Assembly (NCBI RefSeq): GCF_000787575.1
Contig: NW_012236531.1
Location: 395,396 to 459,395 of the forward strand
Direction of reading: 5' to 3'
Origin: Acytostelium subglobosum LB1
Lineage: Eukaryota > Evosea > Eumycetozoa > Acytosteliales > Acytosteliaceae
DNA length: 64,000 nt
Shown here: positions 3,078-48,661 of the stretch, piece after piece
Position numbering within the stretch: position 1 is the stretch's first letter
Layout: every line of letters starts with the position of its first letter
Made by a program: the position numbers and the translations under genes
The notes under the pieces: generated by a model
What the model was told of the DNA's origin: nothing
What the model saw: only the letters and a program-made list of their open reading frames with translations
Database searches by the model: none

Positions 3078-3204
3078 TATGTTTTTAAATGTATTTGTGT
3101 ATATGATTAGTGATTGAAGTAAAATAGATTGATTGTTTTCTCCCCCAAGAGTACAAAATAACATTGTCTTTGAACTAGATTGATATGATTGATATGAATG
3201 ATTG

Positions 3205-3390
3205 GATGGTTGGTGAGTCAGATAATCAAATTTAGTATTATGAATTAGAATGATAGTATTAGAGTAACATAGTAATAATGTTATATATGTGTACATACAT
3301 GTAATAGAGTGATATGGTAATGAGTGATGTCGATGCCCATTTGTCCAAGGACATTCACCGCAATGACAGAGTCACACACTCACACACACT
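3205..3390. repeat. Shared 5' flank, copy 1 (upstream of the F-box/LRR gene)
   Basis: The segment from TAGTATTATGAATTAGAATG through TTGTCCAAGGACATTCACCG to a CACACA-rich tail recurs at about 6990-7195 and 12600-12825. All three copies lie just upstream of a minus-strand gene start, at 3077, 6841 and 12431. They include the same ATGTTATATA core and the same GTACATACATGTA element. This copy is followed directly by the start of the 5.6-kb unit, whereas the other two are followed by about 1.7 kb of further sequence. Confidence 0.75.
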
Positions 3391-3489
3391 ACATCAAGAT
3401 GAAGTTCAAGTGTGGGTGTTTAATTAATTTGAATTTGAAATTCCCGCCCTCTGAGATGACGGTTCAGTTCAAAATGGTGGTTGGTTAAG

Positions 3490-5290
3490 ATGTGGTCCAC
3501 ATGTGTCTGTGACACTGGGCCACTACTCATCTTATTGTCATTGCACTCACTCTCTCCTACTTGTACACATACACTTATACATACTTATGCTTATACTTAT
3601 ACAAATACATCAATAATAAACAACACATTGACATGTATCACTCACCACGTTGTTCTGCCTTGTTGTCTCACTACTGATGAGTTACATGAGTTTGAGTTAT
3701 GATATCAATCAATGAGTGAGTACAAATAGACTTCTAATTGAATCACCATCTGCTGCTTACTTACACTATCCTCTTCTTTTCTTCTCTCTTCTCCTCTGCC
3801 TTCTCATTGACCTTGTGCCTTGAAGCCCGCTGTGTGTGGTCCTTGTCCAAGTCTGGGTCACCTTACCTCTGTCTCCAACTAGATAGACGTCCGCCACGCC
3901 ACCACCTTGACCACAGCCATGAACCTCTGTCTCCATCTGTACAGACGTCCGCCATGCTGCCAAGTTGTCCACAGGCCAGAACCTCTGTCTCCAACTTGAC
4001 TGAGGTCGCCATGCTTCCTTGAGTGCCCAGTACGTCTGTCTCCCTAATCAATGAGTGAGTACTACCACCGATCACAACCTGATCACTTATACTCTGCTTA
4101 CTTACACCTTTCCCTTCTTCTCTTCTACATTGATCCTGTGCCTTGAAGCCCGTTGTGGTCCTTCAGTATTCACCACCTCTGTCTCCATCTTGACAGACTG
4201 TCGTCGTGCTTCCACGTTGACCACAGCCATGAACCTTTGTCACCATCTTGACAGACGTCCGTGCTTCCACAATGTTGCCCACTGCCCAGAACCTCTGTCT
4301 CCAACTTACTGAGGTCGCCGTGCTGCCTTGAGTGACCACAGCCCTGAACCTCTATCTCAATCAATGAGTGAGTACTACCAATGATCGCACCATCTGCGCA
4401 CTTATACTCTGCTTACTTACACCATTCCTTTCTTCTCTCCTCTTCTCTTTACCTTCTCCTTGACCTTGTGCCTTGAAGCCAGCTGTGTGGTACCTGTGAG
4501 TCCATTCCACTTGACCGAACCCCTCCAGCTACACAGACGGCTCCATTGTGCCTCCGCCATGCCGACCACAGTCCAGAACCTCTGCTTCCAACTTGACAGA
4601 CGACTGCCGGCGTGCTGCCACGTTGACCACAGCCACGAACCTCTGTCTCCATATGCAAGCTGCCAAGTTGTCCAGAACCTCTGTCTCCAGCTAGACTGAA
4701 GTTGCAATGCTGCCCCGGGTCCATGAACCTCTGTCCCCAACTATCGATATGGACACAGTCCAGAACCTCTGACTCCATCTAGACTGCCACTCTGCTGCCA
4801 CGTTGACCATAGTTCAGGACCTCTGTCTCCAACTTGACTAACTGCCACGTTGACTACCGCCCGCCTCCGAGCTGACCACCGTCATGCTGACCGCCTCCAT
4901 GCTTCCATGATGGCCACCGTCGACAACCTCTGACTCCAACCAGACAGACAGCCACGATGACAAGTGCGACGCCATGCTGCCAAGTTGTCCACAGCCATGA
5001 ACCTCTGTCCCCATCTTGACTGACCGGTTGCAGTGTTGCCAGACACGTTGATCACAGCCCAGAGCCTCTGTCTCCAACGTCGAGACAGGTATGGTGTATC
5101 CAACTGGAATGATCATAATCAAAGCATTAATAAACGATGAAGACAGGAGTTGTGCAAGTGTGACTTGGAAGGAGAATAACAACAATTGGAAAGGTACAAC
5201 TCAATGATGTCGCCTGGGCACGGTTGCTGCCCAACGGCTTTAAAAAAAATAAAGGCAGCACTTGTGACAATGAGAAGAAACTCTCAAAGT
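3490..5290 (+). ncRNA. Putative spliced modular-repeat transcript, copy 1
   Basis: Arrays of an imperfect module of about 57 nt (AACCTCTGTCTCCAACTTGA, then CAGACG, CCGCCATGCTGCCA, AGTTGTCCACAG) are separated by three copies of an intron-like segment: 3716-3825, 4055-4148 and 4368-4478. Each starts GTGAGTAC, carries a pyrimidine-rich stretch and ends TTGAAG. The locus is preceded by a conserved leader and followed by AATAAA at 5129. Frames on both strands are open only for about 60-110 codons, shift between modules and show no conserved start, so I favour a noncoding transcript. No expression evidence is visible; an untranscribed minisatellite is the main alternative. Many modules can form a short TCTGTC/GACAGA stem. 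Confidence 0.4.
3716..3825 (+). other. Intron-like spacer 1 of the repeat locus
   Basis: It starts GTGAGTACAA, has a long TC-rich tract (CTATCCTCTTCTTTTCTTCT) and ends GCCTTGAAG. Four paralogous copies follow (4055-4148, 4368-4478, 9288-9394, 10067-10164), all keeping the GT start, the TGCTTACTTACAC core and the AAG end. Length (94-111 nt) matches ordinary introns of this genome. Confidence 0.5.
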
Positions 5291-5291
5291 C
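5121..5291. repeat. 171-bp nearly identical block, copy 1
   Basis: It matches 10961-11131 over 171 bases with a single mismatch that I can find (G at 5154, A at 10994) and no gaps, while sequence on both sides has diverged strongly. It begins with the AATAAA-bearing end of the repeat locus and contains a small GGGC/GCCC hairpin (5216-5231) and a run of eight A. Recent gene conversion or strong constraint would explain the contrast. Confidence 0.85.
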
Positions 5292-5754
5292 CTAAGTTGC
5301 TGCCATACCTGTCTCGACGCGGCCTTAACGTCTGATAGCGACAGGTGTAGTAGAAAGGCCAAGGCCACCCCCTTGGGGAGATGGCCAACGAAAACCAGTA
5401 ACGAGCCCGACTTGTTACACATCAGCTTGCTGTTGTCATTCATTGTTCATATCATTAGTATTGGTTGTTGATTGATGATGTTAGTATGTTATTTGATTGA
5501 TTGATTGATTGAGGTAGTGAGGAATGAATGAGTGCGTCCAATAGTGTAATGAATGATGATGGTGATCACTTACCATGTGTTTTCTTGAAGCCTCTTGATT
5601 GGCTAACCCGGGAAACCTATGGTGGTGACGTCGTTGCCAACGCCACCATGATTGAAGAAGTTATGTTAGTAGTATTCGCCCTTTTGGGGACTTGATTGTT
5701 GTGCGTTGGTGTACTTACTCTTTCANTGTGTGTATCTCTAATGATCTCACCTGA

Positions 5755-6010
5755 AAAGGTGTCGATTGGATCGGGTCCTGGAAAGGTCCACCTGGGCTTG
5801 GCCTGGCTTGGCTCGGCGGAATGGCACACGGTCTGGCACGGCACTGGCACGGCACTGGCACGGCACTGGATGACTTGGAGGGAATAGACCTCGCAACGAC
5901 AGGTCATCGTGTGAATGAATCACAACGTCTCCACTGTGTCATCTGGGTTCGGGTGATGGATGTAGGACCACTGATTGGTGGGTTGGTAACTCGACTTTGA
6001 TGTTGTAGTT
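5755..6010. repeat. CTGGCACGGCA segment and conserved 3' flank, copy 1
   Basis: The segment TCCTGGAAAGGTCCACCT...GGCTTGGCTCGGCGG, followed by CTGGCACGGCA repeated in tandem and by a flank with CTCGCAACGACAGGTCATCG, recurs at 11336-11560 in unit 2 (three CTGGCACGGCA-type repeats here, two there). It lies just past the stop codon of the minus-strand gene at 6111 and probably includes its 3' untranslated region. Confidence 0.7.
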
Positions 6011-6110
6011 GTTGGTTGTTGGTTGATTGGTTTCAATCGCCAGCCGAGAGATATTTGGGTTATACCCATCACTCATCTGCTTGATCGACGGCAATATATA
6101 TAGTGGTGAA

Positions 6111-6841
6111 TTACTGTTTGTTGAAAAGGTGAGGGACCGGAGGAGAAAGGACAGGCTCATCCACCTCATAATCTGGTGATGGTGGGTATTGGTATCTGAT
6201 TCCTAGGTGGGGTTGGCCTGGGTCTGCTTGGACCGCTGGATGATTGAATGGTATAGGTGGTTGTGGCATCATCACTTGGTCTCCTGGTATTGGTCCGAGG
6301 TCATGTGGCGGTTGTTGGATGCCAATGTCTTTCAGTGACATGGATGAGAAGCATCAAAGGTGATGATTGAATGGATGGTTAGTATTATTTTTTGACGGTA
6401 GCAAGCAAGTTCATTTGATATATACTTACCATTTGGAATTGGTTCCTGTTGACCATTGGGATGATCTGGCAACTGGTTGTTCTCTGGTAAGTTTGTCCTC
6501 CCAACGAATAGAGTTTGATGGATCTCATTGTGTGGTGTATATGTTATCCTAATTGGATCATGGACTCCATCAGTGCGCACAAGAAGTGTATAAATCACCT
6601 TTTTAGAAGATTCCTCGCCCAATAACAATGTCCTTGGTCGACTATCGAATAAACTTAGAATTGGGTACATTTTGATGACTGCTGTTTTTTTGTCAAAGTT
6701 TATCCTTATTAGAGTGATGACTCTGTGATTTAAGTCGGCCAGCAACAAGTTCTTGGGTATGTGACTGTTGAACAAAGGTCGAATGAGTTTGGCTGGATTG
6801 TATATATATTGATTATTATTATTATTATTATTATTATTCAT
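6111..6841 (-). CDS. Unknown two-exon protein, tandem paralogue A (209 aa)
   Basis: Exon 1 runs 6841 to 6430 and exon 2 6328 to 6111. The intron starts GTAAGTATAT and ends GAAAG, and the model is supported by its paralogue at 11698-12431, which splices in the same phase at the same place. The protein starts with an Asn run, then a region of about 120 residues with repeated Leu-rich strands (NPAKLIRPLFNSHIPKNLLL), and ends in a Pro-rich tail (RYQYPPSPDYEVDEPV, SPPVP). I see no signal peptide, membrane segment or known domain. The Pro-rich tail is about 90 percent identical between the two paralogues while the N-terminal part is only about 40 percent identical, so the tail may be the constrained part. 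It is convergent with the plus-strand repeat locus. Function unknown. Confidence 0.68.
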
Positions 6842-6989
6842 TATTGATAGATTGATTGATTGGTAGCGTTGGAAAACACTGTTGAGAAAGATATTCTTGT
6901 ATAGCAGATAATGGTTTGGCAATAGCCGAAGTAAAGAGTCTATGATATTAATGATAGATTGATTGATTGATTTATGAATCGTTGGTGAG

Positions 6990-7195
6990 TAGAGAGAGAA
7001 TCAATGTTAGTATTATGAATTAGAATGATAGAATTATAATAACATAGTAATAATGTTATATATGTGTACATACATGTAGTAGAGTGATAAGGTAATGAGT
7101 GATGTCAATGCCCACTTGTCCAAGGACATTCACCGCAATGAGAAAGAGTGTGAGTGGGTTACTAGACACACACACTCACACACACCTCACACACA
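6990..7195. repeat. Shared 5' flank, copy 2
   Basis: Same segment as 3205-3390, lying upstream of the minus-strand gene that starts at 6841. It keeps TAGTATTATGAATTAGAATG, the ATGTTATATATGTGTACATA element and CAAGGACATTCACCGCAATG, followed by a CACA-rich tail. Confidence 0.75.
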
Positions 7196-7196
7196 C

Positions 7197-7345
7197 TTAT
7201 AAAGACACAATTTGAATTAAATATTTAAATATATTTAATTAACAGATTGACCATTTAACGGTCCATTTGAATTTGTATCACTCAATACCATCTCAGTGTC
7301 ATCATCAATGAAGTTCACGTTGATGAGTCTTGATTGAGGCTGAGT
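7197..7345. repeat. Conserved AT-rich block, copy 1
   Basis: It matches 12821-12969 with only a few differences over about 147 bp. It contains TTGAATTAAATATTTAAATA and TTTAATTAACAGATTGACCA, then CATTTAACGGTCCATTTG and CAGTGTCATC. The last third recurs again at about 7568-7625. The block starts about 350 bp upstream of the start of the minus-strand gene, so it may be a distal regulatory element. Confidence 0.7.
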
Positions 7346-9064
7346 GATCGTTCCAACTGGAATACTATATGTGATCAGTGATGTACTATGAGCTTGCTGA
7401 TGAGTGGCAAGTGAGCATTGTGATCACTCTATCTTGCGGGTACTGAGTGATTGAAACTCTGTCTTGAGACTAAATGGTTGTTCACCATCCTTGAGATTCG
7501 TCCTGTCCATGCTCAATGTCGATTAGCTCCTTCATGACATATATAGTCGAATGAACAAGTCAACGATCAACACCATCTCAGTGTCATCATCAATGAAGTT
7601 CACGTTGATGAGCCTTGATTGAGGCACGATCGTTCCAACTGGATACTCTGATGAATGAATGAATGAATGAATGAGCTTTGTTGTAAGAGACTGCTCTGAT
7701 GTCCATTGTGATCTTGATGAGCTTGCATGTTATCGGTGTTCTGTCTGTTTGTCTGTCTCAATGTCTCTAACTGTCTGTCCACCTGTTTATGTATGTTTGA
7801 TTAATCGATTGAATGAGGTCACAGCATCCAATATGGGCTGAGGGTTGATCCTATGTTCTATTTTGCTGGGACAGACTACTGATTGAATGACTGACTGACT
7901 GGGTAGGTGTTGTATGAATGGTCAATGGTGATACATGTCGCTTGATTGGAGTTCGCCAGGTTTTGTCTTGATATGTTTGCCTTTAATCGATGTTGACCTA
8001 GCGTCTTGTTCATCAATCCCAACTGGCGATAGAGAACTAATGTGCTCTACCTTGATGTGACCGACCTGCCTGATTGACTGACTGACTGACTAGCCATTCC
8101 AGCTCCTACACACCCTATTAGACAGGTTTGATCCAATGTTTTTAACGCGCTGCGTGAAACAATATTTGATGGACTGGTACCTGCTCGCAAGATTGTCTCT
8201 CTCACTGGCGCCATGTTGACTAAATGTGTTTGCCTTTGTGATGCGATACATGGTGCCTTTCCCGATTGATGTCTAGCCATTGTCCTCACTGATGTTGGTG
8301 GACCACCTTTCGTCACCAATGCTGTCTAATCATACAAAATGTTGCACAGTCCTAAAGCTTTGAGGATTCATTGATGGTGATGCGACTCTCGACTAACGAT
8401 CTATGAGTGACCATCATCGAGTGGCAGTCAAACGAAGTTTGGCCACCCAATACCACGTTTGGATCTTGCTGTGTTCTTTGGGGAGCTCTTGCCCTTCAAC
8501 TCTATTTAGAAAGTCTGCCACGCGCCAGGTTAGTCATCAATGAAACTCAATCAATCAATTGGATGAGTGAATGTGTGTACATACTCTTCGTTTCTCTCGA
8601 CAGTCCTTTGTTTGGTCCTGTCGTCGTTGGATCTTGAATTGAGGTCGATGTAGCAATTACTTGTCCACTTTGATCAATCTCTGAGTGTTGTCTTTGGGAC
8701 GTTGCTGGAGCATTCCCCATGAAGAATTATGACTCGTGGAGAGGCGTCTATACCTGAGGTCAAGTGCTCGCCAGAGTTGACTCGTGACTCGATTGGATGA
8801 GTGGTGTCCATGTCCACTTAATCTTAATTGATTGGTCGAGTCATGACGAGAAGACATAATAAGTACTGATGTATGAATGAATGAAGTGTTGTATTGGATA
8901 CAATGATCACAAATAAATATCTTGGGAATGTTCCCCCACTGTTTTGGTTGACCACAACACCATTGACCAATAAAACAAGTGAAGTTCAATGAGGGTGTAA
9001 ATTTGAATTTGAAATTAGCGCCCATTGGAATCGAAATAACGGTTGAGTTCAAAATGGTCGTTGG

Positions 9065-11130
9065 TTAGATTTGGTCCACATGTCACTCGGACCCTGGGTC
9101 ACCACTCATCTCATTGGCATTGTACTCACTCTCTCCTACTTGAACACATACACTTATACATACTTCTGCTTTTACTCATACTAATATATCAATAATAAAC
9201 AACACATTGACATTATCACTCACCACTTTGTTCTGCCTTTTTGTCTCACTACTGCTGATGAGTTTGAGTTATGATATCAATCAATGAGTGAGTACTACTT
9301 GACTTCTAATTGCATCACCATCTGCTGCTTACTTACACTATCCTCTTCTCTTCTCTCTTCTCCTCTGCCTTCACCTTGACCTTGTGCCTTGAAGCCCGCT
9401 GTGTGGTCCTTGTCAAAGTCAGTGTTCACCACCTGTATCTCAATCACGTCCGCCGTGCTGCCATGTTGCAATGAATCTCTGTCACCATCTTGATAGACTG
9501 CCGTCTGCTTCCACGTTGACCATGAACCTTTGTCACCATCTTGACAGACGTCCGCCGTGCTGCCACAGCCATATTGACCACAGCCCAGAACCTCTGTCTC
9601 CAACTAGATTGACAGACGCCATGTGTCTGGAGCCTCTGCCTCAAACTTGACTGCCGCCGTGCTGTTGACCACAGCCATGAACCACTGCCGCTGATGCCCA
9701 GAGTGTACCTCTGCCAACAAGCTGCCTGACCACCCGCCGCCATGCTGTCTGACCACTTCCCCTAACCTCTGCCGCCATGTTGCCTGAGTTGACATCTGCT
9801 GCCTGAGTCCATGAACCTGTGTCTCCAACTAGATAGACGACCGCCATGCTGCCACGTTGACCAACGCCATTATGACTCGGCCATGCTGACCGCGACCTGT
9901 CCACAGCCCACTACCACTGGTGCATAGCTGCCTGACCACTGCCGCCATGCTGTCTGCCACAGCCATGTTGACCATAGCCCAGAACCTCTGTCTCCAACGA
10001 AACAGACGGCAGGACTCCACCATGCTGCCTTGAGTGACCTTAGCCCTGAACCTCTGTCCTCAATGAGTGAGTACTACCAATGATAGCACAGCTGCTCACC
10101 TATACTCTGCTTACTTACACCATTCTCTTCTCCCTTCTCTTCTGTCTTCCTTTGTGCCTTGAAGACCTCTGGGTAGTCCTTGTCAAGTTACTTTCTCCAA
10201 CTAGACAGACGGCCGCCTTTGTGACTCGGCCATGCTACCAAGTTGTCCACACCCCGAACCTCTGTCTCCATCTAGAATGAGGTCGCCNTGTGCCCTGACT
10301 GACCACAGCCCAGAACCTCTGTCTAGACAGCCCCATTGTGACTNTGCCATTCTGACCACCGCCATGCTGCCAGGTTGTCCAATGCCAAGCTGTCCACAGC
10401 CCAGAACCTCTGTCTCCAACTTGACTGACTGCCGACGTGCTGCCACGTGAACCACAGCCACGAACCTCTATCTCCATCTGTACAGTCGTCCACCATGTTG
10501 CCAAGTTGTCCAGAACCTNTGTCTCTGCTAGACTGAAGATGTCCTGAATGACCACGGCCTCCCATTCTGCACCGAGTCAACCTCTGTGGTCCGTCGCCGT
10601 GTTGCCAGACACGTTGATCACAGCCATGAACCAATGTCTCCAACTTGACTGACTGCCAGGCGTGCTCCCACGTTGACCAGCCCTGAACCTCTGACTCCAA
10701 CTAGACTGCCACTATGCTGCCACGTTGACCCGCCTCCATGCCAACAAGATGGGCCATCGTCGACAACCTCTGACTCCAACCAGACAGACAGCCGCGATGA
10801 CAAGTGCGCCGCCATGCTGCCAAGTTGTCCATCTCGAGTTGACCACAGTCCAGAACCTCTGTCTTCAACTAGAAAGACGCCACGCTGACAAGCGCACCGC
10901 CATGTTGCCATCAGATCATTGACAGACCACAGCCATCCTGCCAAGTTGACGAGTGTTTCCAAAGCATTAATAAACGATGAAGACAGGAGTTGTACAAGTG
11001 TGACTTGGAAGGAGAATAACAACAATTGGAAAGGTACAACTCAATGATGTCGCCTGGGCACGGTTGCTGCCCAACGGCTTTAAAAAAAATAAAGGCAGCA
11101 CTTGTGACAATGAGAAGAAACTCTCAAAGT
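9065..11130 (+). ncRNA. Putative spliced modular-repeat transcript, copy 2
   Basis: Same organisation as at 3490-5290: leader, intron-like segment 9288-9394, an array of about 57-nt modules, intron-like segment 10067-10164, a second array, and AATAAA at 10969. Modules have drifted (for example AACCTCTGCCGCCATGTTGCC types near 9760), but the CTCTGTCTCCAACT...GACAGACG core is still frequent. Three ambiguous bases (10288, 10344, 10519) lie in the array, as expected when short reads are assembled across tandem repeats. No consistent reading frame runs through the arrays on the plus strand. Confidence 0.4.
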
Positions 11131-11131
11131 C
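10961..11131. repeat. 171-bp nearly identical block, copy 2
   Basis: Partner of 5121-5291, with one mismatch. As in unit 1, it begins at the end of the module array, carries AATAAA and precedes a segment with TTGCTGCCATACCTGTCTCG. Confidence 0.85.
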
Positions 11132-11197
11132 AACAAAGTTGCTGCCATACCTGTCTCGACGATGCCCAAAGTCTAATAGCGACAGGTGTAGTCCCCA

Positions 11198-11290
11198 GGC
11201 CGTGCCCACCCCTCTTACATGGTGGGCCCACCCGTCCCTCTTGCATGACAGGCCGACCCATCCCTCTTGCATGATGGGCCACGGCCACCC
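11198..11290. repeat. Short minisatellite of about 31 nt, three copies
   Basis: Three imperfect tandem copies of CCC(A/G)TCCCTCTTGCATGA followed by (C/T)GGGCC. It is present in unit 2 only, between the 171-bp block and the CTGGCACGGCA segment. Confidence 0.7.
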
Positions 11291-11335
11291 CCTTGCGGAG
11301 ATGGCCAAATGGTGATGGGAGGAAATGTTAGTAGG

Positions 11336-11555
11336 ATTCGGTCCTGGAAAGGTCCACCTCGGCTTGGCCTGGCTTGGCTCGGCGGCATGGCTCACGGTCT
11401 GGCACGGCACTGGCACGGCACTGGATGACTTGGAGGGAATAGACCTCGCAACGACAGGTCATCGTGTGAATGAATCACAACGTCTCCACTGTGTCATCTG
11501 GGTAAGGGCGATGGATGTAGGACCTCTGATTGGTGGGTTGGTAACTCGACTTTGA

Positions 11556-11560
<5 letters not shown>
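11336..11560. repeat. CTGGCACGGCA segment and conserved 3' flank, copy 2
   Basis: Counterpart of 5755-6010. It is followed by a TTG trinucleotide run (11556-11596) that is much shorter in unit 1. Confidence 0.7.
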
Positions 11561-11595
<35 letters not shown>

Positions 11596-11697
11596 GATGT
11601 TGGTGGTTGATTGGTTTCAATCGCCAGCCGAGAGATATTTGGGTTTTACCCATCACTCATCTGCTTGATCGACGGCAAGATATAAATAGGTGAATAA

Positions 11698-12431
11698 CTA
11701 ATTGAAAAGGAGAGGGACCGGAGGAGAGAACACAGGCTCATCCACCTCATAATCTGGTGATGGTGGATATTGGTATCTAGGTAGTTGGTGGTGGCCAATG
11801 TCTGCTTGGGTGACTGGATGACTGGATGGAATCGTTGGATAAAGTTGGTCTCCAGGTCTTGGTCCGAGGTCGGAAGGTTGTTGATTGATTTCATTGTCTT
11901 GGATGAAAAGGACATGGACGAGGATGGTTAGTACTTGGTTTTACAGCAGACAGGCAGACATCACTCAATCATTGAATGAATGAGTTCATTTGATGTAAAC
12001 ATACGATTTGGTCCCATTTGATTTGGGGTGGATACTGGTTGCCTACTGGGGTAGACAGGCAACGATCGTAATATCCTGAGACAGATACAGTGAATGAGTT
12101 GGACATTACTATTCTCCTGGTTGAGAGGAGCGTATGGGACAGTATTCGCAATGACAAATGCGACATCAAGAGGAACCCTGCGTGAGAAACTGACTCCATC
12201 TTGATCCTTTCCAAATAAAATCTTTGGTCGCCTGTTGTCGAACAGTGGTTTGATTGGTTTGACGTATGGGAGTATGAGAAGTGTCGCGCCAATGTCAATG
12301 AAGACCTTGAACTTCCTGATGATCGTGCCTTTTTTGGTGGCCAGAAGCAAGGTCTTGGGAACTGTCGGGTCAAACAACAGTCTAAGGGGCTTGGCAGGTG
12401 GATAGAGTGATTGAATATAATTAAATTGCAT
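11698..12431 (-). CDS. Unknown two-exon protein, tandem paralogue B (208 aa)
   Basis: Exon 1 runs 12431 to 12005 and exon 2 11897 to 11698; the intron starts GTATGTTTAC and ends TCCAAG, in the same phase as the paralogue at 6111-6841. The protein begins MQFNYIQSLYPPAKPLRLLF and ends with YQYPPSPDYEVDEPVFSPPV and PLLFN. Compared with its paralogue it lacks the Asn run. Both copies keep open frames, splice sites and a nearly identical tail despite heavy divergence of the DNA around them, which points to selection on a protein. I do not recognise the family and see no secretion signal. Confidence 0.68.
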
Positions 12432-12599
12432 TGTAATAATAATAATAATAAAGTCGAGTTGAAGAAGGCGTAGTAGTGTTGGAAAACACTGTTTAAAGTG
12501 ATATTATTGTTATGTAGATAATAGTTTGGCAAAAGCCGAAGTAGAGAGTCTATAAATAATAATAATATGATTGATTGATATTGATTGATTGGATGGTTG

Positions 12600-12825
12600 G
12601 TGAGATAGAGAGTCAATGTTAGTATTATGAATTAGAATGATGATAGTATTATAGTAACATTGTAATAATGTTACATAAGTGTACATACATGTAATAGAGT
12701 TGATAAGGTAATGAATGATGTCAATGCCCACTTGTCCAAGGACATTCACCGCAATGAGAGAGTCTGTGAGTGGGTGAGCAGTGACATCCTCACACACACA
12801 CTCTCACACACTCACACACACTCAT
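12600..12825. repeat. Shared 5' flank, copy 3
   Basis: Third copy of the segment at 3205-3390 and 6990-7195, upstream of the gene that starts at 12431. It includes AACATTGTAATAATGTTACA, GTGTACATACATGTAATAGA and CTTGTCCAAGGACATTCACC. Confidence 0.75.
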
Positions 12826-12969
12826 AAACACACAATTTGAATTAAATATTTAAATATATATTTAATTAACAGATTGACCATTTAACGGTCCATTTGAATT
12901 TTTATCACTCAATACCATCTCAGTGTCATCACCAATGAAGTTCACGTTGATGAGCCTTGATTGAGGCCT
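12821..12969. repeat. Conserved AT-rich block, copy 2
   Basis: Partner of 7197-7345. It differs mainly by one extra TA in the TTTAAATATATA run and scattered single bases. Confidence 0.7.
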
Positions 12970-14660
12970 GAGAGAGCCCAACGATCGTTCAGAGTATACT
13001 CTGATGAATGAATGAATGAATGATGAGTCTGTTGTTGACACTGCTCTGTGATCTTGATGTGCTTGCATGTGATCGGTGGTGTACTATGCGCGTGTTGATG
13101 AGTGCCAAGTGGGCCATGATGATTGAATGAGTGCATCGCTTCACCTTCAATTGGATGTGATGCTCTATCTTGCTGCAACTGACTGATAGTCTGACCGCCT
13201 GGGTGAGTGTTGGTTCGATGGTCACTAGTGATGCATGTCCCTATGAACAAGATGAGCTCAAGTTGTCCAGGTAATAGATTGAGTGTACTGTTGTGGTAGA
13301 AGCGCAGTGAACGGCTCCTGAAGATGTTGCAGGTTGGACTAGACATCATTATCGAGATGTGATGCCCCAATAACGGTGATCATTGAGTCGAGCATGGTGG
13401 TCGAGTTGTTAAGACGAGTATCGAATGAGTTGGAGACGATGACAGCTTCTTGTCGAGGTTGTTCTCAGAAACGTCGATTGGGACTCGTGCACCGATATGA
13501 TGCTGGTGATGCGCTGCTCCAGCGGCCTCTGCAGTGTGCATCTGTGTTAAGCCACTGCAGTTGGGTGCAATGAGGATGAATGTGCTAGATCTTGCTGTGA
13601 CTGCATGATTGAGCGATCAATTCTGCCATGAGATTATCCCCTTTGCGATGGCTTCCTCACCACGATGATTGTGCATCTTGATGTTGGTGGTGCCATGGGC
13701 TTGGCGGACAACAGCGAGATTATCGTGAATGGCGGGCTGATGTGGGAGGTGAGCAGTCACCTGCCAAGGTGTTGAGTGATGAGATGAGAGTGTCAAAGAT
13801 GAGCTGTGTGAAACAATGTTGGTGATGAGTTGATTTCCCAATCGATGTCTCGCCATTGTTTTCTTTACATTACTGATGCTTGCAACTGATTGGTTATGGA
13901 AGTTGGCGGACCCCTCCTCTCCGTCGCCGGTGCTGTCAAACCTGACCATGTTGTTCAGTCTCCTTAAGGGCACTCCCTTATTTCAAATTGATGGTGAATG
14001 ACTCTCGACCACCAACGAGCTGTCTGTATGAATCCACTGCCTCACAGAGTGACCATACCAATCCCACTATCCAACTCGTTGACCACAGTGATCTCTTTGG
14101 ACGCTGCTTTTCATGGGAATGTGGCTGCCTTCTTGCCCTTCAACTCTCACCTCCTGAGGTGGGGGACTAGGCGAATTGTGAAAGACTTCCTCGGTGATGG
14201 GGACCTCGCCATGCTGCGTGTATCTTGGTTGAGACTGGTGACCACCGAGATTGTCACTGGATCCAGACAACCATCTGGTCGGTCCGATCACATGCATGAT
14301 GGGCTTGGCGCTTTGTCGATCGTCACGGGGCAGTGCTCCTCCTGTATCAAAGAAGAACGAGATCAGAGAAGACCAGCATAGCAGACTTGATTAGTTGAGC
14401 GGTAACGTCTGTCTGTCATCATGACAGCAAAAGTGTGATAGATGGATGGGATGGCCTTCTGGGATACAATCCGATTCGGTCATGTCATTGTTTGGGTACC
14501 CATTGCATTGAAATTGAATGTTTGATTATATATATATATTATAAATGCTGATGTTGTAGTATGAATGAATGAATGAATGAATGAATCAATTGATGAAATA
14601 ATGTAGTGTTTTAAAGATCAACTTAAATATCTTCCCCCACTGTTTGGAATGAACTTCCAT

Positions 14661-15440
14661 TCAACTTGATCATTTGAACTTCAAGTGTGGTTGGTAGTGT
14701 CAGTTATTGGGATTCGAATTTGAAATTGTCGCGGTAACCAGGATTGACAACGGCTGGGTTTCAAAATCCGTCAATGATGGTTGGTTGAATGGTGCGTGTG
14801 ACACTCATGGTGCGACATAGACAGCTATAAATACGAAGCACTTCTCTCTCATTGATTCATTCATTCTTCTCACTCTCTTACTTATACTTGTATACATACA
14901 TGTCCTGAACCTTTGTTACCTTACCTTGAGCTCACAGAAGTGCCGTGCTGTTGACCTCTGCCGCCATGCTGTCTGACCTCTGCCGCCTTGCTGTCTGACC
15001 TCTGCCGCCATGCTGTCTGACCCCTGCCGCCGTGCTGTCTAACCACTCCCGCATTGCTGCTGATCTCTGCCGCCACGCTGACTGACCTCGAACCTCTGCC
15101 GCCGCAGTCTTACCTCTGCATGTGCGGCCGTGCTTTCTGACCGCTGCCGACGTGCTGTCTGCTGACCTTTTGCCACCATGCTCTCTGACCTCTGCTATCG
15201 TGCCGTCGTGCTGTCTGACCGCTGCCCCGATCTCTGTCGCCATGCTGACCTCTGCTGTCGTGCCGCCGTGCTGTCTGACATCTGCTGTCGTGCCGCCATG
15301 CTGTCTCTGACCTCTGTCTCCAAGAGCCTTTGTCTCTCATCCTGCTACGAACCTCTGTCACCAGCTAGACTGTCTCCCTCAATGCTTGAGCTGCCGCTGA
15401 CCTCTGCCACGAAGCTCTGATCCTAATCCAATAAATTGAT
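14661..15440 (+). ncRNA. Putative modular-repeat transcript, partial unit 3
   Basis: The leader of units 1 and 2 recurs (GAATTTGAAATT, then TCAAAATCCGTCAATGATGG), followed by a clear TATAAATA, a pyrimidine-rich start region and an array, and ends with AATAAA at 15430. The array uses shortened modules of about 22 nt (GACCTCTGCCGCCATGCTGT plus CT) rather than 57 nt, and no intron-like spacer is present. The rest of the 5.6-kb unit, including a minus-strand paralogue, is missing; the methyltransferase gene follows. The first ATG after the TATA box is followed at once by a stop (ATG TCC TGA), which argues against translation from there. Confidence 0.4.
14826..14833 (+). promoter_or_regulatory. 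TATA-like box of the unit 3 repeat locus
   Basis: TATAAATA lies about 55 bp before the pyrimidine-rich stretch that leads into the array, and just downstream of the conserved leader. It is the best promoter-like signal of the three copies. Confidence 0.45.
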
Positions 15441-15589
15441 GTTGATGGCTCGCATGCCATGTCTACAAACAACTACTTTTATTATCTGATTGTTGATGTT
15501 TGATCGACTTGAATATGATTGATTCCTTGATTGATCAGTTACAGAAAGATAGCAGGTGTACAGTGTTGAAGTAATTAATGATCAACCAA

Positions 15590-20700: not shown

Positions 20701-20944
20701 CTTAATTATTATTATGAATCAATATTGAATGAATGAACATTGATGAATCTTTGGACCAACCTTAATCTTGAAGAATGTGGATGGTCAACTTCCAAAAAAG
20801 ATCTGGAAAGATCAAACGATATTTTAGAATCTGGACTTCCGCAAAAGGTCAACCCACATTCGATGTTTGTTCATTATTCATTCTTTTCGCTACATCATTC
20901 TCCGACGACAGTATCTACAAATAATAATAATAATATATAATAAC

Positions 20945-22330
20945 ATGTTGAACAATCTATCAAGTGAACGAATCGAACAGATATCAATATTTGTAGACAA
21001 TGACCTTGATGTATTATCACTTATATTTACATGCAAGAGAATGTATAGTTTGAAGCAGATGTTGTTACCTCATGTACAACCATCAACTTTAAAGAATCAT
21101 ATAATGTCAGATACACCCAGTTATAATAATGATGATAAAGATAAATATAGTGATGATAATCCAAGAGAGAGGAGTATAAATGTAAAATCTATTCAAAAGG
21201 ACTTCAAAGACAAATGCTCAAACCTACCGCCAACAGTGACCAAGTTGAAGCTATGTTTTAGAAACGAAGAAAAATCGATACCAGCCGGAGTGCTACCTCA
21301 ATCACTGCTCACTCTCTCGTTATCGTTCAACTTTGGCGGCAAGATCATACCGGGCTCACTTCCCGACTCGCTCACCAAGCTCAAGTTCAAGGAGTCATTC
21401 ATCAATCCATGCATTGGTACCTGGTACACTGCCCGACTCACTCGTCACACTGGACATGGGCCAATTGAGAATGGCAAGCATGTGTCCACCAATTGGGCCT
21501 GGCGTACTACCGCTATCACTTGTCAAATTGACTCTACATAACCTGAGGTGCATTGGTCTAAGATCGCTACCAGCCAAACTGAGGTATCTGACATTGGAGC
21601 ATGTTGAGGTCAATGATACCGACTTAAGGCCAGGTCTCCTGCCACCCTCACTCACATTCCTTGATCTTAAATATGTGACTCCAAAGCTCAATGTCAAGAC
21701 ATTCGCCATTTCACAGCCAAGATCCCTTCACACATTGGTCATGCCACAGCGCAGTCAACAGTTCCACAACGAGGCATTGCTTCCCAACACGATCAGAAGT
21801 CTGGCACTGAGCGGGTCGTTGGCACAGAGATGGGACACAGTTGTCCTTCCAGCTCTCCTCACACATCTGTCACTTGGCAGAGTCAGCCCAAAACAGTTCG
21901 ATCAGTCGGTCTCCTGGAGGAAATTGACTTTCCTCAGTTGGAAGTGTTCGACTCCAAGTTGGATGCATTCTACCTCAACATCTCAAAGCCGCTCAAGAAG
22001 CTAGACCTGGCATTGATGGTCAATATCAAGATTATGTATGGGTACATTCCCAATTGCAAGACCTATCATTTTCTATTTAGCGATTCATCGTTGATGCATC
22101 TGAGACGACTTGACAAGAAGACCACACTATGTATGGTGCAACGACGTAATAAGACAATCGAATCTAGAGATAGCTCTAATAGGTTCGGCCAGAGATCTGC
22201 TCATGCATTAGGTCTCAACATTCCCATCATCAGCAGATCCATCACATTTGGAAGCAAGGCCAACATGAACAACACATTCATACAGATACTTACTTTTCCA
22301 CCATCATTCTTTAAGGTTAATAATAAATGA
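20945..22330 (+). pseudogene. F-box/FNIP-repeat gene with two frameshifts
   Basis: It starts MLNNLSSERIEQISIFVDND with an F-box-like helix set (DLDVLSLIFTCKRMYSLKQM) and then FNIP repeats, seen as IPAGVLPQSLLTLSLSFNFG, PGSLPDSLTKLKF, VPGTLPDSLVTLDM and GPGVLPLSLVKLTL. Reading continues in a second frame from about 21410 and in a third from about 21893; each frame alone would stop early. The last part (SLMHLRRLDKKTTLCMVQRR to FIQILTFPPSF) matches the ends of the two neighbouring genes. The second shift lies at an AAAA run, so sequencing error is possible. No GT-AG pair fits either junction. Unlike its neighbours it lacks the N-terminal zinc finger. Confidence 0.75.
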
Positions 22331-22476
22331 GTATTTGGAATACCATCCAAGATCCATCTATGATCAAGATATAAGAGTGCACTGAATGATCAAGATATAT
22401 AGTTCACTAAATGATTGATCAAAAGACGAACCAATGAGTGTGTTTCGTCTTTTTCATTTTCATTGAAGAGAGAACA

Positions 22477-24283
22477 ATGTCAACAGATAATAACGATTCA
22501 CAACGAAGAGAGAATATAAAGAAGATTGTGGAGTCAACATCAAAGTGTGTAGTGTGCTCCCAACTCGTGCCTCCCATTCACTTACCCAAGCATATGTATG
22601 AATGTGCAAACATTCTTTTAGACACAATCAGACTGCACATTCAAATAGTCGATCCCTCAACAACATCCCCAACAACTCCATCAACAAGTCATACTCATTC
22701 TCATAAGAAACCAACAACAGACAGTCTTCTACAACCAAACTTTCTTTTTGAAGACATCGCCAACAACACTCCTGAGACTACCAATGTTCGATGTACAAGT
22801 GTCGTGGCATCATCAACAATATCAACAACGCAGACACAGCCACAGACCCATACCAAGACACACAACAACCCATCGACAACATCAATCAGTAATCCATCAT
22901 TGGAATTTGCATTGTCATTGGCATCACATAATTCCAACAATTGTTTATCTAAACTACCATTGATTGTACTCAAACAGATCATCAAATATTTTGGCCAAGA
23001 CATTGACACTTTGGTACTACTGATGACATGCAAACAACTCTATTCATTGTTGAAGTCACTGTTGCCGCATATTCGACCATCCAATGATAAATGGAGACAT
23101 ATTGATGAGTGGAAAGTGGCTGAGAGGACTGAAGGTGGCCCAACATGGCGAACCATGTTGATTGACAAGAACATTCAANTTCCCTCCAACCTTGACGTGT
23201 CTGACCTTAGAGAAATCCAAGGGCAGTTCCAAAGGCTTGCCAATAACACCTGGCATCCTACCTCAAACACTGCTCGAACTTAGAATGGAGTACCCGATCG
23301 AGATCACACAGAACATCTTCCCAGAGTCACTGGACACTCTATCACTTCAATCATATAGGAATGACAAACTTGAGCCTGGTTTGTTGCCAGAGTCAATTAG
23401 ACGACTGGTTATTGTCAACAATCTATTCAAACCAATCACTCCTGGTGTACTACCGACACGTCTAAGACAATTGAAGATATGCTCAGTGGATGGCGTCACA
23501 AGGAGAATACTGCCAAACACTCTCAAATTCTTGACAATCATGGACTTTAGAACACCGATCACCAGCGAACAACTGCCAGAGTCACTCACTTGGTTGACCA
23601 CTGATGGAGACATACCAATCCTGTCCAAAGACTCAAAGCTACTAACCTTGGATTTGGCTGGTTTCAAAGCCAGACAGCACATTCAGTATGGACAACTACC
23701 AGACTCAATCACTCGCCTGTCAATTCCCCGTGCCACAGGACAGAACAAGGGCAATACGGCATGGCCTCCACTACTGTCTCACGTAACCCTGGGCACAACC
23801 AGCCATTTCAGATTCGACGGTACCTTCCCCAAGACTCTGAGATCAGTCGGAGTCAGGGACCCCATCCAACTCGAGGGTCAACTACCTCGCTTCACCACCA
23901 AAATAGATAGTCTTCATCTCACAATCTATCTACTGGCAGAGAAGGCAACTGCTAAGAAGCTGCTGCGATTCATCAAGTCTCTATACATTAGTGTTCCCAA
24001 TGTGACCACCTACTACTTGAAATTCTTGGACGGCTCACTTATGAAGCTGCGACGACTGGACAAACGCTACACACTGAGCGTGTTTCAAAGGTCATCAGAC
24101 CCCAGGTCTTTGTATATCGCATGGCTCTATTCGCGTTACCTCTCGAGTGATGTAAATGCTGAATGTCACTCATTGGGTCTCCAAGCTCGTTTGACAAATC
24201 GTTTCAACAAAGAAGATAACAACAACACCTTTGTCCAGATAATGACCATTCCTGATGCTGTTGCCCAAACCAAGATGAAATAA
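22477..24283 (+). CDS. UBZ4-like zinc finger/F-box/FNIP-repeat protein, copy 1 (frame broken at an ambiguous base)
   Basis: Start at 22477 (MSTDNNDSQRRENIKKIVES). Residues about 24-43 form CVVCSQLVPPIHLPKHMYEC, which has the Cx2Cx11Hx3C spacing of the Rad18-type UBZ4 ubiquitin-binding finger. A Thr/Ser/His-rich linker follows, then an F-box-like segment (LSKLPLIVLKQIIKYF), then FNIP repeats (TPGILPQTLLELRM, EPGLLPESIRRLVI, TPGVLPTRLRQLKI) up to the end at 24283. The frame shifts exactly at the ambiguous base near 23179. If that base is absent the frame runs through and reads QFPPTLTCLTLE, as in the neighbouring paralogue, so the break is most likely an assembly artefact. FNIP F-box proteins are presumed SCF substrate receptors. 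Confidence 0.82.
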
Positions 24284-24353
24284 ATAAATCGCGAAACACG
24301 TGGTTGGTTTGGACAAACGAATGATCATTTTTATTTTCGTTTAAGTGATAACA

Positions 24354-26114
24354 ATGTCAACAGATAAAAACAATGGAGATTCACAACGCAGAGAGAATAT
24401 AAAGAACCTGGTGGAGTTAACAACAAAGTGTGTAGTGTGCTCGCAACTCGTGTCTCCCATTCACTTGCCCAAGCATATGTATGAATGTGCAAACATACTT
24501 TTAGAAACGATCAGGCCTCATCTTCAAGTTGCCGATCCTGCAACAACGCCAACAACAACTCAAACGTCTCCATCAACTCCAACAACTCAAACAACTCAAA
24601 CAACAAGTCATACTCATTCTGATAAGAAACCAATAACAGACGGTCTTCTACAACCAAGCTTTCACTTTGAAGAACTGGAAAACACTCTTACTAAGTCACA
24701 GTCATCGACACCGACCAACTCAACAACATCAATCAATCAATCATTGTCGTTGCCATTGTCATTGTCATTGTCATCCAACAACATATCTAAACTACCATTG
24801 ATTGCACTCAAACAGATAGTCAAATATGTTAACGATGACCTCAATACCATGTTACTCTTGATGACGTGCAAGCAACTCTATTCATTGTTGAAGTCACTGC
24901 TGCCGCATATTCAGCCATCCAATGATAAATGGAGACATATTGATAAAAAGGAAGTGAGAGAGAGGACCCAAGGTGGCTCAACATTGCGAACCACCTTGAA
25001 TGATAACAGCAAGAACAATCAATTCCCTCAAACCCTCACACGTCTGATCTTAGAGACGTCCAACGGCAGCATCAATGGCTTGCCCATAACACCTGGCATC
25101 CTACCTCAAACACTGCTCGAACTTAGAATGGAGTACGAAATCGAGATCACTCCCAACCTCTTTCCAGAGTCACTCAACACTCTGTCACTTGGTAAATACA
25201 GCAACGCCAAACTTGAGCCTGGTTTGTTGCCAGAGTCAATCAGACGACTGGTGATTGGAGACAATCGATTCAAACCAATCACTCCTGGTGTACTCCCGAC
25301 ACGTCTAATACAATTGAAGATATGTTCGGTGGATGGCGTCACAAGGCGAATGCTGCCAAACACTCTAAAATTCTTGACAATCATGGACTTTTTTACACCA
25401 ATCACGAGCAATCAACTGCCAGAGTCACTAAATTGGTTGACCACTGATGGAGACATACCTATCCTGTCCAAAGATTCAAAGCTACAAACCTTGAACTTGG
25501 TCGATCACTTTTGCAAACAACATATTACGAGTGGTCTACTACCAGACTCAATCATTCGCTTGTCGATTCCCCGTTCTTCTGGTCAGCCCAGCAGCAAGAC
25601 GGCATGGCCACCACGATTGCTTCACGTGGTCCTGGCCAGCCTCAACCATTTCAGGTTTGATGGCACCTTCCCCAAGTCTCTGATATCGGTTGGAGTCAGA
25701 GATCCAGTCAGATTTGAAGGTGTACTTCCACCATTCATCACCAAACTTGATAGTTTCCATCTCATTGTCAATCACAAGCTAAAAAAGGAGAATGCTCGTC
25801 CTCTGCTTTTATTCATCAAGCATCTATTCACGAGAGTTCCCAATGTTACCACCTACTACTTGAGGTTCACCGATGGATCACTTATGCAACTGCGACGACT
25901 GGACAAACGCAACACCTTGAGCATATTACAAAGGTCCACAGACAGCAGCTGGGAAACAATTTTGGCAAATATCCCAAAGTACCTCCCAAGCGACATTAAT
26001 TACGAATGTCACTCATTGGGTCTCAGTCAGTATACATGTCGTTACAACAAAGCCAACACCTTTGTCCAGATATTGACCATCCCTGAAGTCAGTTGCCTCA
26101 ACCCAACCCAATAA
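24354..26114 (+). CDS. UBZ4-like zinc finger/F-box/FNIP-repeat protein, copy 2 (586 aa)
   Basis: Intact paralogue of the previous gene, starting 70 bp after its stop. The open frame begins three codons earlier (MIT), but MSTDKNNGDSQRRENIK aligns with the start of its neighbour, so I use 24354. Order: finger CVVCSQLVSPIHLPKHMYEC (about 24-43), Thr-rich linker with TQTTQTTSHTHSDKK, F-box-like KLPLIALKQIVKYV with a second part LLMTCKQLYSLLKSLLPHIQ, then about ten FNIP repeats and a C-terminal domain (GSLMQLRRLDKRNTLSILQR). The two genes are highly similar along their whole length, so this is a fairly recent tandem duplication. The pairing of a ubiquitin-binding-type finger with an F-box suggests a ligase receptor that also senses ubiquitin, by inference only. 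Confidence 0.88.
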   Translation: MSTDKNNGDSQRRENIKNLVELTTKCVVCSQLVSPIHLPKHMYECANILLETIRPHLQVADPATTPTTTQTSPSTPTTQTTQTTSHTHSDKKPITDGLLQPSFHFEELENTLTKSQSSTPTNSTTSINQSLSLPLSLSLSSNNISKLPLIALKQIVKYVNDDLNTMLLLMTCKQLYSLLKSLLPHIQPSNDKWRHIDKKEVRERTQGGSTLRTTLNDNSKNNQFPQTLTRLILETSNGSINGLPITPGILPQTLLELRMEYEIEITPNLFPESLNTLSLGKYSNAKLEPGLLPESIRRLVIGDNRFKPITPGVLPTRLIQLKICSVDGVTRRMLPNTLKFLTIMDFFTPITSNQLPESLNWLTTDGDIPILSKDSKLQTLNLVDHFCKQHITSGLLPDSIIRLSIPRSSGQPSSKTAWPPRLLHVVLASLNHFRFDGTFPKSLISVGVRDPVRFEGVLPPFITKLDSFHLIVNHKLKKENARPLLLFIKHLFTRVPNVTTYYLRFTDGSLMQLRRLDKRNTLSILQRSTDSSWETILANIPKYLPSDINYECHSLGLSQYTCRYNKANTFVQILTIPEVSCLNPTQ

Positions 26115-45858: not shown

Positions 45859-48661
45859 ATGGACATAAACAACTATTACAACATTATCAAATCGATCAAT
45901 GATGGAGAGTCCTTGAAGAGTAAGTCCCATCACTTGTACTCTCTGTCCACTCACTCGCTTTCATTCACTAATTGACTCTATTATAACAGACCTGGTACAA
46001 ACATTGTTCAAGTCATATTGCACATCACAGACGGCTACGACAAAGTATGTTGGATTGTTGGTTGACTTGACTGCTGACTCTATGTCCAAACTCAAGACCT
46101 CACTCTACAATCTTCAAGAAGGTAGTGAGGATCCAAACATTGATGAGTCAATCAATCAGGTGAGAAAGTTGATCATATCCATTGGATTGGTATGTATATT
46201 CTTGTTGGACAACATTGGACATCATTGATCATCATCATACTTATATTCAATCAATCAACCATCATAGATTGGAAGGTACTCACCTTACATTGTATCATTC
46301 AAAGAGTATCTTGGTTACATTGTGGAGCATATACTGTTGAACTCATTGCAGACCATCAATGCCATGGACATGCCCGTCAACAGCAAGCGTAGAGAGGATA
46401 TCCAAGCACTTTATGTGAGTACTACTCTCACTACATCACTCCATCAATCATTCAATCACATACTCACTCACTCACTCACTCAATCAATCAAAGGTGGAAT
46501 CAATCAGATCTTATACATTGATCCTTCAAGCATATGGTGAGCACATGGAACAATATGGAGCAGCCTTGTTCGAAGCTGTATCAAAGCATATCAATGATGG
46601 AATGTTTGGAACAGGCCTATCCAACAACATAGATTCATACTCACTGACTTCAATAATTGAGTTGTTGTCCATTCTCATCCAGACCACTCCACAAGTAGTC
46701 CGCGCCAATCCACTCCTAGTCAACCATGTTGTCAATGCTCTAGTGTATGTAGTAGTCTGACCACAAGCAGGCAGACAGGGCACAAGTACTAATCAATCAA
46801 TCAATCAATCACTTATATCCAGTGCACTGAAGTTGGATGGTGATGATGATCACACTGCGATATTGGATGAGATGGTACAAGTGCTGGGCCATTACCTTCA
46901 ATTGTTCATTGTTTGTCCATTCCAATCACTCAATCAAGATCAATATCAGAAACAGAAACAGAAGCAAAAGAAACAATTTGGTGATCAAGATGGTGATGAC
47001 GAGGATGATGATGAGGATGACGAAGATGAGGATGAGGACGATGACGAAGAATCCGACTCCTCACCAGACAACATCCAGATAAGGATAGCAGAGAAACGCC
47101 AAGATTTGGCGTCAAAGATAACAGTGGCGAAGACATTGAACATAATTGACAAGCTGTTGACATCAAATGGATTCTGGGACAAGGAAACAAACATTATGTT
47201 GTTGGCCATCATCGCGTCATATTCATTGATTCATCATGGCAATGAGAGTGTTCCTGTGATGGAGCGCATCGTTCATCAGTTTAGCGATCAGTTGGCATTG
47301 GCAAATGGAGGCGCATCCAACGAGCGCGCCAACAACATCATCAACAGCTTGGCCTACCTCTTCTCAAACACACCACGCGACTTGGCTGTTGTCCATACAT
47401 CTCTGTGCCAGCTGTACCAGTGCATCACACAATACTTCACACGAGTGAAGAGCGCTTCGCGCGAGCGAATGGATTCGTCGGTCAGTCGCGAGGTCAAGGC
47501 AGCCCTGGCACAGACTCGCGAGTTAGTTGGAGTGGCACTGGGCAAGATGCTCCTTGTTCACAACAACTTCTCGCCATCTGCCGATGAGTTCCTTGCCTTT
47601 GCATTCGTCCTTGCCGAGCCATTGGTACTCGCCGACTTCATTTACGCGTTGGTATACGACATCAAACATCACCAAAACAATGGACCCATCATCGAGATGA
47701 CACAACGACTGCGAGACGTCTACCTGCCCAAGACAATTGGACCTCTGATATCCCAACTCAAGAGTAAATACCAAAGTGTAAGTCATCTTCCCAGAGCCAT
47801 CCATCAATCATACACTTACTGGAACGTTCCACTTCACATCATTAGTCACCCAAGCTCGCAGGATGCATCATCAAGGCAATTGGTAAGATGGTGGCATATG
47901 CTGGTGGATACATGGCAGACTACTTTGATGAGATAATTGATGCAATGGCAATGGTTATGCAATATGGATGGGAAGTGTTCTCAACACATGCTGTTGCATG
48001 TATATCAACATTGGCCAAGGTTGTCAGTGCAGAGACTTCTGGATGCACAGAATATCAACTCAATCGTGTAATGGCACTGTTTGGACTGGTCCTCTCCGAG
48101 CAGATCGTCGCCAATTCCGATGATGATGATCATATTGACATTGATGAGATGAACCGAATCAAGTTCATGGTGCTAGAGGAGGTTGGTGAATACCTTGAGC
48201 AGGCAGCAATGCATTTCAAACCAGACAGCACACAGACACAGACACAGCCGTCGTCCAACATTCTTAGTCAGCTGATGGCATACTTGATGGTCAACATTGG
48301 TGTGGAGGAGGTCACATTCGATTCTGAACTATACCTTCGCATGTCTCAACTTACAACTCTCAAGCAATTGGTAATATATCAACGACAAGTTGGTACGGAC
48401 AGTACTGATCATATAAAGACGGCACTTGGATGTATGATCGATGAGTTGGTACTGATATCAAAGATGGTGGATGATCAAGAGATGCAAGAGACATTGGAAG
48501 ATCATTGCGTTGATGTACTTGGAGATACTGTCCAAAATATAACCAAATCGATTGATCGCCCTGGTGTCCTACAGATCCTCGAGCAACTAATGAACGAGAA
48601 GAGTTTGCCAAGTGACCAAAGGAAGCGTGTCGACAAATCTTTGATCGCTCAAACAAAATAA
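45859..48661 (+). CDS. Helical repeat protein, HEAT/armadillo-like, unknown (806 aa)
   Basis: Six exons: 45859-45919, 45990-46189, 46268-46414, 46494-46744, 46823-47777 and 47855-48661. Each junction keeps the frame, and the assembled product is 806 residues. It looks alpha-helical throughout, with amphipathic stretches such as LVNHVVNALVALKL, AKTLNIIDKLLTSNGFWD and FVLAEPLVLADFIYALV, as in HEAT or importin-type proteins. A long acidic run (DDEDDDEDDEDEDEDDDEES, about residues 300-320) is reminiscent of karyopherins and chaperones. I do not recognise the family; a karyopherin-like or scaffold role is only a guess. The last splice acceptor is chosen because CTCGCAGGA keeps the frame while two nearer AGs do not. 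Confidence 0.75.

Follow-up and report, generated by a model that had tools for sequence, protein, structure and literature searches.

Three tandem repeat-array loci in Acytostelium subglobosum, a candidate family of repeat-bearing noncoding RNA genes

Repeat arrays, leaders, and intron-like segments

The 64-kb stretch of the Acytostelium subglobosum LB1 genome analyzed here (64,000 nt of contig NW_012236531.1; hereafter, the window) contains three plus-strand repeat arrays at approximately 3826–5110, 9395–10960, and 14905–15430 (arrays 1, 2, and 3 of loci 1, 2, and 3, respectively), which share a common module family. The arrays are 0.5–1.6 kb long and consist of fused modules, and those of loci 1 and 2 are accompanied by five intron-like segments. 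The features of the three loci, with the evidence for each in parentheses, are as follows.

3437–3715, plus strand: locus 1 promoter/leader and predicted first exon (identity to locus 2; match to a hidden Markov model, HMM)
3716–3825, plus strand: intron-like segment 1a (exact motif positions; alignment)
3826–4054, plus strand: locus 1 array, predicted exon 2, 58-nt modules (Tandem Repeats Finder, TRF; module HMM)
4055–4148, plus strand: intron-like segment 1b (exact motif positions; alignment)
4149–4367, plus strand: locus 1 array, predicted exon 3 (TRF; module HMM)
4368–4478, plus strand: intron-like segment 1c (exact motif positions; alignment)
4479–5110, plus strand: locus 1 array, predicted last exon (module HMM)
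5129–5134, plus strand: AATAAA at the end of locus 1, with another at 5248 (motif search)
9011–9287, plus strand: locus 2 promoter/leader and predicted first exon (alignment to locus 1; HMM match)
9288–9394, plus strand: intron-like segment 2a (exact motif positions; alignment)
9395–10066, plus strand: locus 2 array, predicted exon 2 (module HMM)
10067–10164, plus strand: intron-like segment 2b (exact motif positions; alignment)
10165–10960, plus strand: locus 2 array, predicted last exon (module HMM)
10969 and 11088: AATAAA in the locus 2 copy of a structured block (motif search)
14741–14900, plus strand: locus 3 promoter/leader, with TATAAATA at 14826 (HMM, E 5.9e-6; shuffle comparison)
14905–15430, plus strand: locus 3 array, 22-nt and related units, without an intron-like segment (TRF; match to array 2)
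15430–15435, plus strand: AATAAA at the end of locus 3 (motif search)

In locus 1, TRF detected two instances of a 58-nt unit, and in locus 3 it detected units of 22, 30, and 16 nt. The original prediction of a module of about 57 nt is thus corrected to 58 nt, and its 22-nt module in the third locus was recovered together with two further unit lengths. An iterated module HMM gave 46 matches in the window at E ≤ 1, of which 44 lay inside the three loci (18, 22, and 4 in loci 1, 2, and 3, respectively), all on the plus strand, and 2 lay elsewhere; one of the 22 matches in locus 2 overlapped segment 2a. Module spacing ranged from 38 to 115 nt. The motif ACCTCTG occurred 13, 13, and 10 times in arrays 1, 2, and 3, respectively, compared with 0.3–0.4 times expected from shuffles. 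Among the 383 8-mers of locus 3, 119 were shared with arrays 1/2 in the same orientation and 3 in the reverse orientation, and array 3 matched array 2 at z 18.8 and array 1 at z 6.4, as against z −0.5 for the reverse complement of array 2. Same-strand homology among the loci far exceeds what chance would give. An exact 24-letter pattern of the module (one N) had no match in viral contigs.

The regions in front of the arrays are also related. Loci 1 and 2 share 83–93% identity in three alignment blocks spanning 3450–3743; their promoter regions matched at z 45, and their leaders are 93% identical. The locus 3 promoter matched that of locus 1 at z 6.6 (0/300 shuffles), more weakly than loci 1 and 2 match each other, and that of locus 2 at z 3.6 (2/300 shuffles), and its leader matched at z 3.7 (1/300 shuffles). 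An HMM of the promoter/leader of loci 1 and 2 found 14741–14900 as its sole further match below E 0.1. The conserved leader that the original prediction gave to every locus is therefore firm in the first two loci and weaker in the third, whose clear TATAAA was found as described. The AATAAA predicted for each locus was likewise located (5129, 10969, and 15430), but the signal is not specific to locus ends, because further copies lie within or ahead of the leaders (3615, 8912, 8969, and 9194).

All five intron-like segments have the form GTGAGTAC...TGTGCCTTGAAG (also written GTGAGTAC...GTGCCTTGAAG) and lengths of 94–111 nt, and exact motif positions confirmed the coordinates first proposed for them. 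An HMM built from the five found these five only in the window (next match, E 4.4). With respect to introner-type mobile introns, which are near-identical copies at unrelated sites, the 64 kb thus offers just these five, every one within these arrays. All 19 donor and acceptor columns are invariant in the five copies (permutation p 5e-5), as is an internal block, CTGCTTACTTACAC, which contains TACTTAC. In the pyrimidine tract, 76 transitions and 28 transversions were counted over all copy pairs, versus 53 and 80 in the 5' half; as the pairs are not independent, these counts are given without a p-value. The invariant donor, acceptor, and TACTTAC block, together with a tract that keeps its pyrimidines, favour plus-strand splicing.

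Promoter and array homology on the same strand is present in all three loci, and five sets of splice-like signals are kept. We infer from these features that the loci are transcribed, spliced, and polyadenylated, and their best reading, which we hold tentatively, is a small tandem family of repeat-bearing, plus-strand long noncoding RNA (lncRNA) genes. They would be three tandem paralogous dictyostelid noncoding-RNA genes read by RNA polymerase II; the transcripts of loci 1 and 2 would lose the five 94–111-nt introns by splicing, and polyadenylation would take place near the terminal AATAAA. Unequal exchange of exon–intron units within a larger duplicated segment may have multiplied both arrays and introns.

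Coding potential and the strand of splicing

The arrays exceed 200 nt and look noncoding, with no conserved coding frame. The longest open runs on both strands of the three arrays were within dinucleotide-shuffle expectation (p 0.34–0.83), the 25 module spacings fell 10, 10, and 5 to the three classes modulo three, and 300-nt windows across the arrays had negative hexamer log-odds whichever of the six frames was read. As a control, exon 1 of the neighbouring gene B, which was outside the training set, scored +0.58, and exon 1 of gene C scored about zero. A decayed or frameshifted repeat-protein gene, to which minus-strand open runs of 109, 125, and 134 codons could be ascribed, is hardly credible: these runs match shuffles (p 0.46, 0.54, and 0.34, respectively), the units are 58 and 22 nt long with spacings that are not multiples of three, and the hexamer scores are negative.

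The segments were compared with nine coding introns of this genome, a small sample collected partly by eye: six were picked by eye and three were kept from the six rows of an automatic search, in which one of the three dropped rows (46160–46327) has a GTG donor. A looser search returned 33 rows, including 13 unvetted candidates with GTG donors, 5 of them GTGAGT; this genome may thus use a minority of GTG donors. The segments end in an AG acceptor, and AAG acceptors occur in three of the nine coding introns, two of which lie in the paralogous genes B and C. A polyT peak 15–40 nt from the acceptor has been described in two amoebozoans (PMC2483917).

Several observations weigh against spliced plus-strand genes. 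All nine coding introns have GTA donors, versus none of the five segments, which have GTGAGT; six of the nine contain CTAAC, in place of which the segments carry TACTTAC; and the tract is 79–87% pyrimidine in the segments versus 47–72% in the coding introns. By a donor matrix built from the coding introns, the plus donors are outside the top 7 sites of their loci, and GTAAGTA on the minus strand scores 5.7–9.2 bits. Because the five segments were defined by the ends they have in common, the donor and acceptor invariance is partly built in, and it extends into the upstream exon side (TCAATGA). The copies are not independent, as shown by the 94% identity of 1a and 2a, and over the ten pairs the conservation of whole introns (63–94% identity) barely exceeds that of their 3' flanks (60–84%). 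TATAAA is absent from loci 1 and 2 and present in locus 3 only, the sense strand of the arrays would be minus by AT skew, and the patchy conservation between loci 1 and 2 may reflect gene conversion. The hexamer test alone is not decisive, because it missed the real coding exon 1 of gene C.

Some of these points are what a minus-strand transcript would predict. Its donors would be GTAAGTAAGC, the reverse complement of the TACTTAC block, and its introns about 62–91 nt long; the product would be a G-rich repeat RNA heading towards genes A–C, perhaps providing their upstream exons. The coding-donor matrix gives these donors 9.2 bits at 3764 and 9336 and 5.7 bits at 4105, 4420, and 10118. In all five cases, CTCAC lies 45–49 nt past the donor and TAG or CAG at 62–91 nt, and the reading through 2b was recovered in the loose coding-intron search (10046–10118); the AT skew also agrees with it. 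However, the matrix, derived from nine introns, is unspecific, giving 7–9 bits at other minus-strand sites (e.g., 3572, 14899, and 14924), and the acceptor position varies (62–69 nt in 1b, 1c, and 2b, 91 nt in 1a, and 82 nt in 2a). A minus-strand reading also fails to explain why the TGTGCCTTGAAG block is invariant and the tract rich in purines, and no minus-strand AATAAA is found in 3300–5600 or 8900–11400, the one observed being at 15478. We consider a minus-strand transcript distinctly unlikely. Calling the strand from base skew was rejected, as the GC skew points to plus and disagrees with the AT skew. In our judgement, transcription is probably from the plus strand, and the chances that splicing is on that strand are about even. 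As a single explanation, the spliced, polyadenylated repeat-RNA family of the original prediction accounts best for the promoter-like homology, the terminal AATAAA, and the splice-like signals and pyrimidine tract, but it is a prediction only, with donors atypical of the coding introns and a splice reading on the reverse strand.

Structured block, tandem duplication, and neighbouring genes

Arrays 1 and 2 are each followed by a structured block and a minus-strand protein gene.

5120–5323, no strand assigned: structured block, locus 1, with a strong hairpin at approximately 5254–5304 (identical run; fold z)
6111–6841, minus strand: gene B, two exons (first unit)
10960–11167, no strand assigned: structured block, locus 2 copy (alignment; HMM)
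11698–12431, minus strand: gene C, two exons (second unit)

The two blocks are near-identical, with an identical run of 137 nt (138 with gaps skipped) between units, versus a maximum of 48 in 500 permutations. The region 5110–5330 folds at z −3.1 and −3.9 on the plus and minus strands, respectively, and a 51-nt hairpin inside the block gives z −5.8 for 5254–5310; 10 of 15,986 57-nt grid windows fold equally well or better, at least one of which overlaps the hairpin. A 17-bp inverted repeat in locus 1 pairs 5078–5094 with 5303–5319. The block is a candidate structured RNA or pre-microRNA-like hairpin. One A. subglobosum microRNA (miRNA) is reported to have eight paralogs of identical duplex, whose source loci are unclear (PMC11014262).

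Alternatively, the functional product might be a small structured RNA at 5120–5323 and 10960–11167, to which the array RNA would mainly be precursor or neighbour, as the long identical run and the strength of the hairpin would suggest. This is very improbable: an HMM found no copy of the block after array 3, the first AATAAA precedes most of the block, and other identical runs suggest gene conversion. No Rfam family reached its gathering score anywhere in the window, and 5050–5420 gave three Rfam matches at E ≤ 10 (best E 1.2). An exact 24-letter pattern of the block had no match in viral contigs or prokaryote genome contigs. SCARNA7 (RF01295) was rejected, as its matches (33.1 bits at 12754–12911 and 27.3 bits at 7130–7310, over TG-rich tracts) score well short of the gathering threshold of 65.

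Self-comparison revealed a tandem duplication whose first two units align in four ordered pieces (3387–4018/8968–9564, 4556–5371/10384–11212, 5768–6331/11334–11900, and 6863–7347/12473–12975), and the plus-strand array, the structured block, and the two-exon protein gene on the minus strand occur once per unit. Unit-to-unit identity is 93–100% in blocks of the leader, intron 1, tail, and 3' flank, and 43–64% over most of exon 1 of B/C. Such a mosaic suggests that either gene conversion or constraint has been patchy, two possibilities that the data do not separate.

The loci could also be an untranscribed or functionless minisatellite, a decaying local duplication in which the intron-like segments are passengers of unequal exchange or gene conversion. 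The arrays turn over through indels and rearrangement, as reflected in their variable spacing and in the identity of loci 1 and 2, which ranges from 47 to 100% per block over 3450–5387. Long identical runs occur without evident function (e.g., 105 nt at 5844–5948), and the whole introns are hardly better conserved than their own 3' flanks. The original prediction had argued that spliceable units would not stay in frame with the array in a minisatellite alone; this argument fails, since there is no reading frame in the array and an intron is copied passively when an exon–intron unit undergoes unequal exchange. Against a minisatellite stand the three invariant blocks, at the donor, the acceptor, and a branch-like position, the transition bias of the pyrimidine tract, and the promoter-like homology that persists in locus 3, although array and introns are different there. 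We regard a minisatellite as somewhat unlikely.

Proteins B and C are 40% identical (84/210), and Pfam gave no match to their exon-1 parts at E ≤ 0.1. Divergence between B and C is far greater in exon 1 than in exon 2 and the flanking noncoding DNA. An element of approximately 190 bp occurs three times, at 3177–3373, 6956–7144, and 12568–12764, upstream of the minus-strand genes A, B, and C, and is possibly their common promoter. Downstream of genes B and C, noncoding stretches with CTGGCACGGCA repeats (5790–6060 and 11356–11644) are 96–97% identical. The spacers before arrays 2 and 3 (7200–8900 and 12900–14700) have best minus-strand hexamer scores of −0.42 to +0.10 and possibly represent a decayed minus-strand gene.

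Elsewhere in the window, FNIP-type repeat genes were recognized by eye at 20867–26114 and 49001–50314; 24345–26114, the sole FNIP-type stretch run against Pfam, matched FNIP at E 3.2e-17. Like the FNIP repeats, the poly-asparagine runs seen by eye in predicted proteins and a Ras-PH protein (Pfam) point to a dictyostelid. The window has a G+C content of 43.9%; A. subglobosum has been reported to have 55.0% A+T and 381 FNIP-family members, and the other dictyostelids with a value have 66.2, 68.0, and 77.6% A+T (PMC4334915).

RNA folding and comparison with known repeat-bearing RNAs

As plus-strand RNA, arrays 2 and 3 fold less than their shuffles (mean z +1.1 and +1.6, respectively), whereas array 1 is neutral (+0.3); the minus-strand means for arrays 1, 2, and 3 are −0.3, −0.3, and −0.1. 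No consensus base pair was found in 27 aligned modules of the 44 matches in the loci, and a TCTGTC/GACAGA module stem spotted by eye was rejected on the same alignment (0 pairs). The low folding and recurrent ACCTCTG fit a weakly folded, multivalent protein-binding RNA and also a plain low-structure repeat. If the lncRNA reading holds, the mature RNA would be a weakly folded, pyrimidine-rich strand presenting at least 10 ACCUCUG-type sites, which might gather or titrate an RNA-binding protein, as in repeat-bearing lncRNAs. By analogy, this is the most likely mode of action, and is itself unlikely. A fuller version, namely a spliced, multivalent, dictyostelid-specific RNA family that is linked on its 3' side to a pre-miRNA-like hairpin block, has an architectural or decoy role, and diversifies by exon–intron unit swaps, seems improbable.

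The loci probably form a small lncRNA gene family of a general kind already known, the repeat-bearing lncRNA, described examples of which are Firre and Gomafu; the original prediction knew of no such described system. Firre is, like these loci, a noncoding RNA locus with local repeat copies, one of which suffices for nuclear retention of an mRNA (PMC4820808); it is mammalian, with RNA and function demonstrated, whereas the present loci are predicted and are likened to it by description. The noncoding RNA Gomafu/MIAT repeats a short protein-binding motif, UACUAAC, in tandem (PMC3116199), whereas the repeated motif here is ACCTCTG, a candidate protein site only. A Gomafu-like UACUAAC/branch-point array was rejected, as ACTAAC occurs 1, 0, and 0 times in the three arrays.

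Among dictyostelids, the developmental lncRNAs of Dictyostelium discoideum are similar by description as noncoding transcripts, and the words 'tandem' and 'spliced' are absent from the main text of that report (PMC5295588). Class I RNAs form noncoding families with a median length of approximately 60 nt, near that of the 58-nt module, but each is a short RNA of its own that carries a terminal stem and an 11-nt motif (PMC7919456), whereas the modules here are fused in arrays without a consensus stem; the 11-nt motif had no exact match on either strand of the window. No repeat-array or minisatellite RNA of dictyostelids was found among the matches listed in the open-access literature, judged by titles and abstract openings.

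If the three loci are not transcribed, they would represent ordinary repeat decay. If they are transcribed, they would constitute an amoeba family of repeat-array lncRNAs with multiplied introns, and would show, in a culturable organism, how such RNAs grow by the duplication of exon–intron units.

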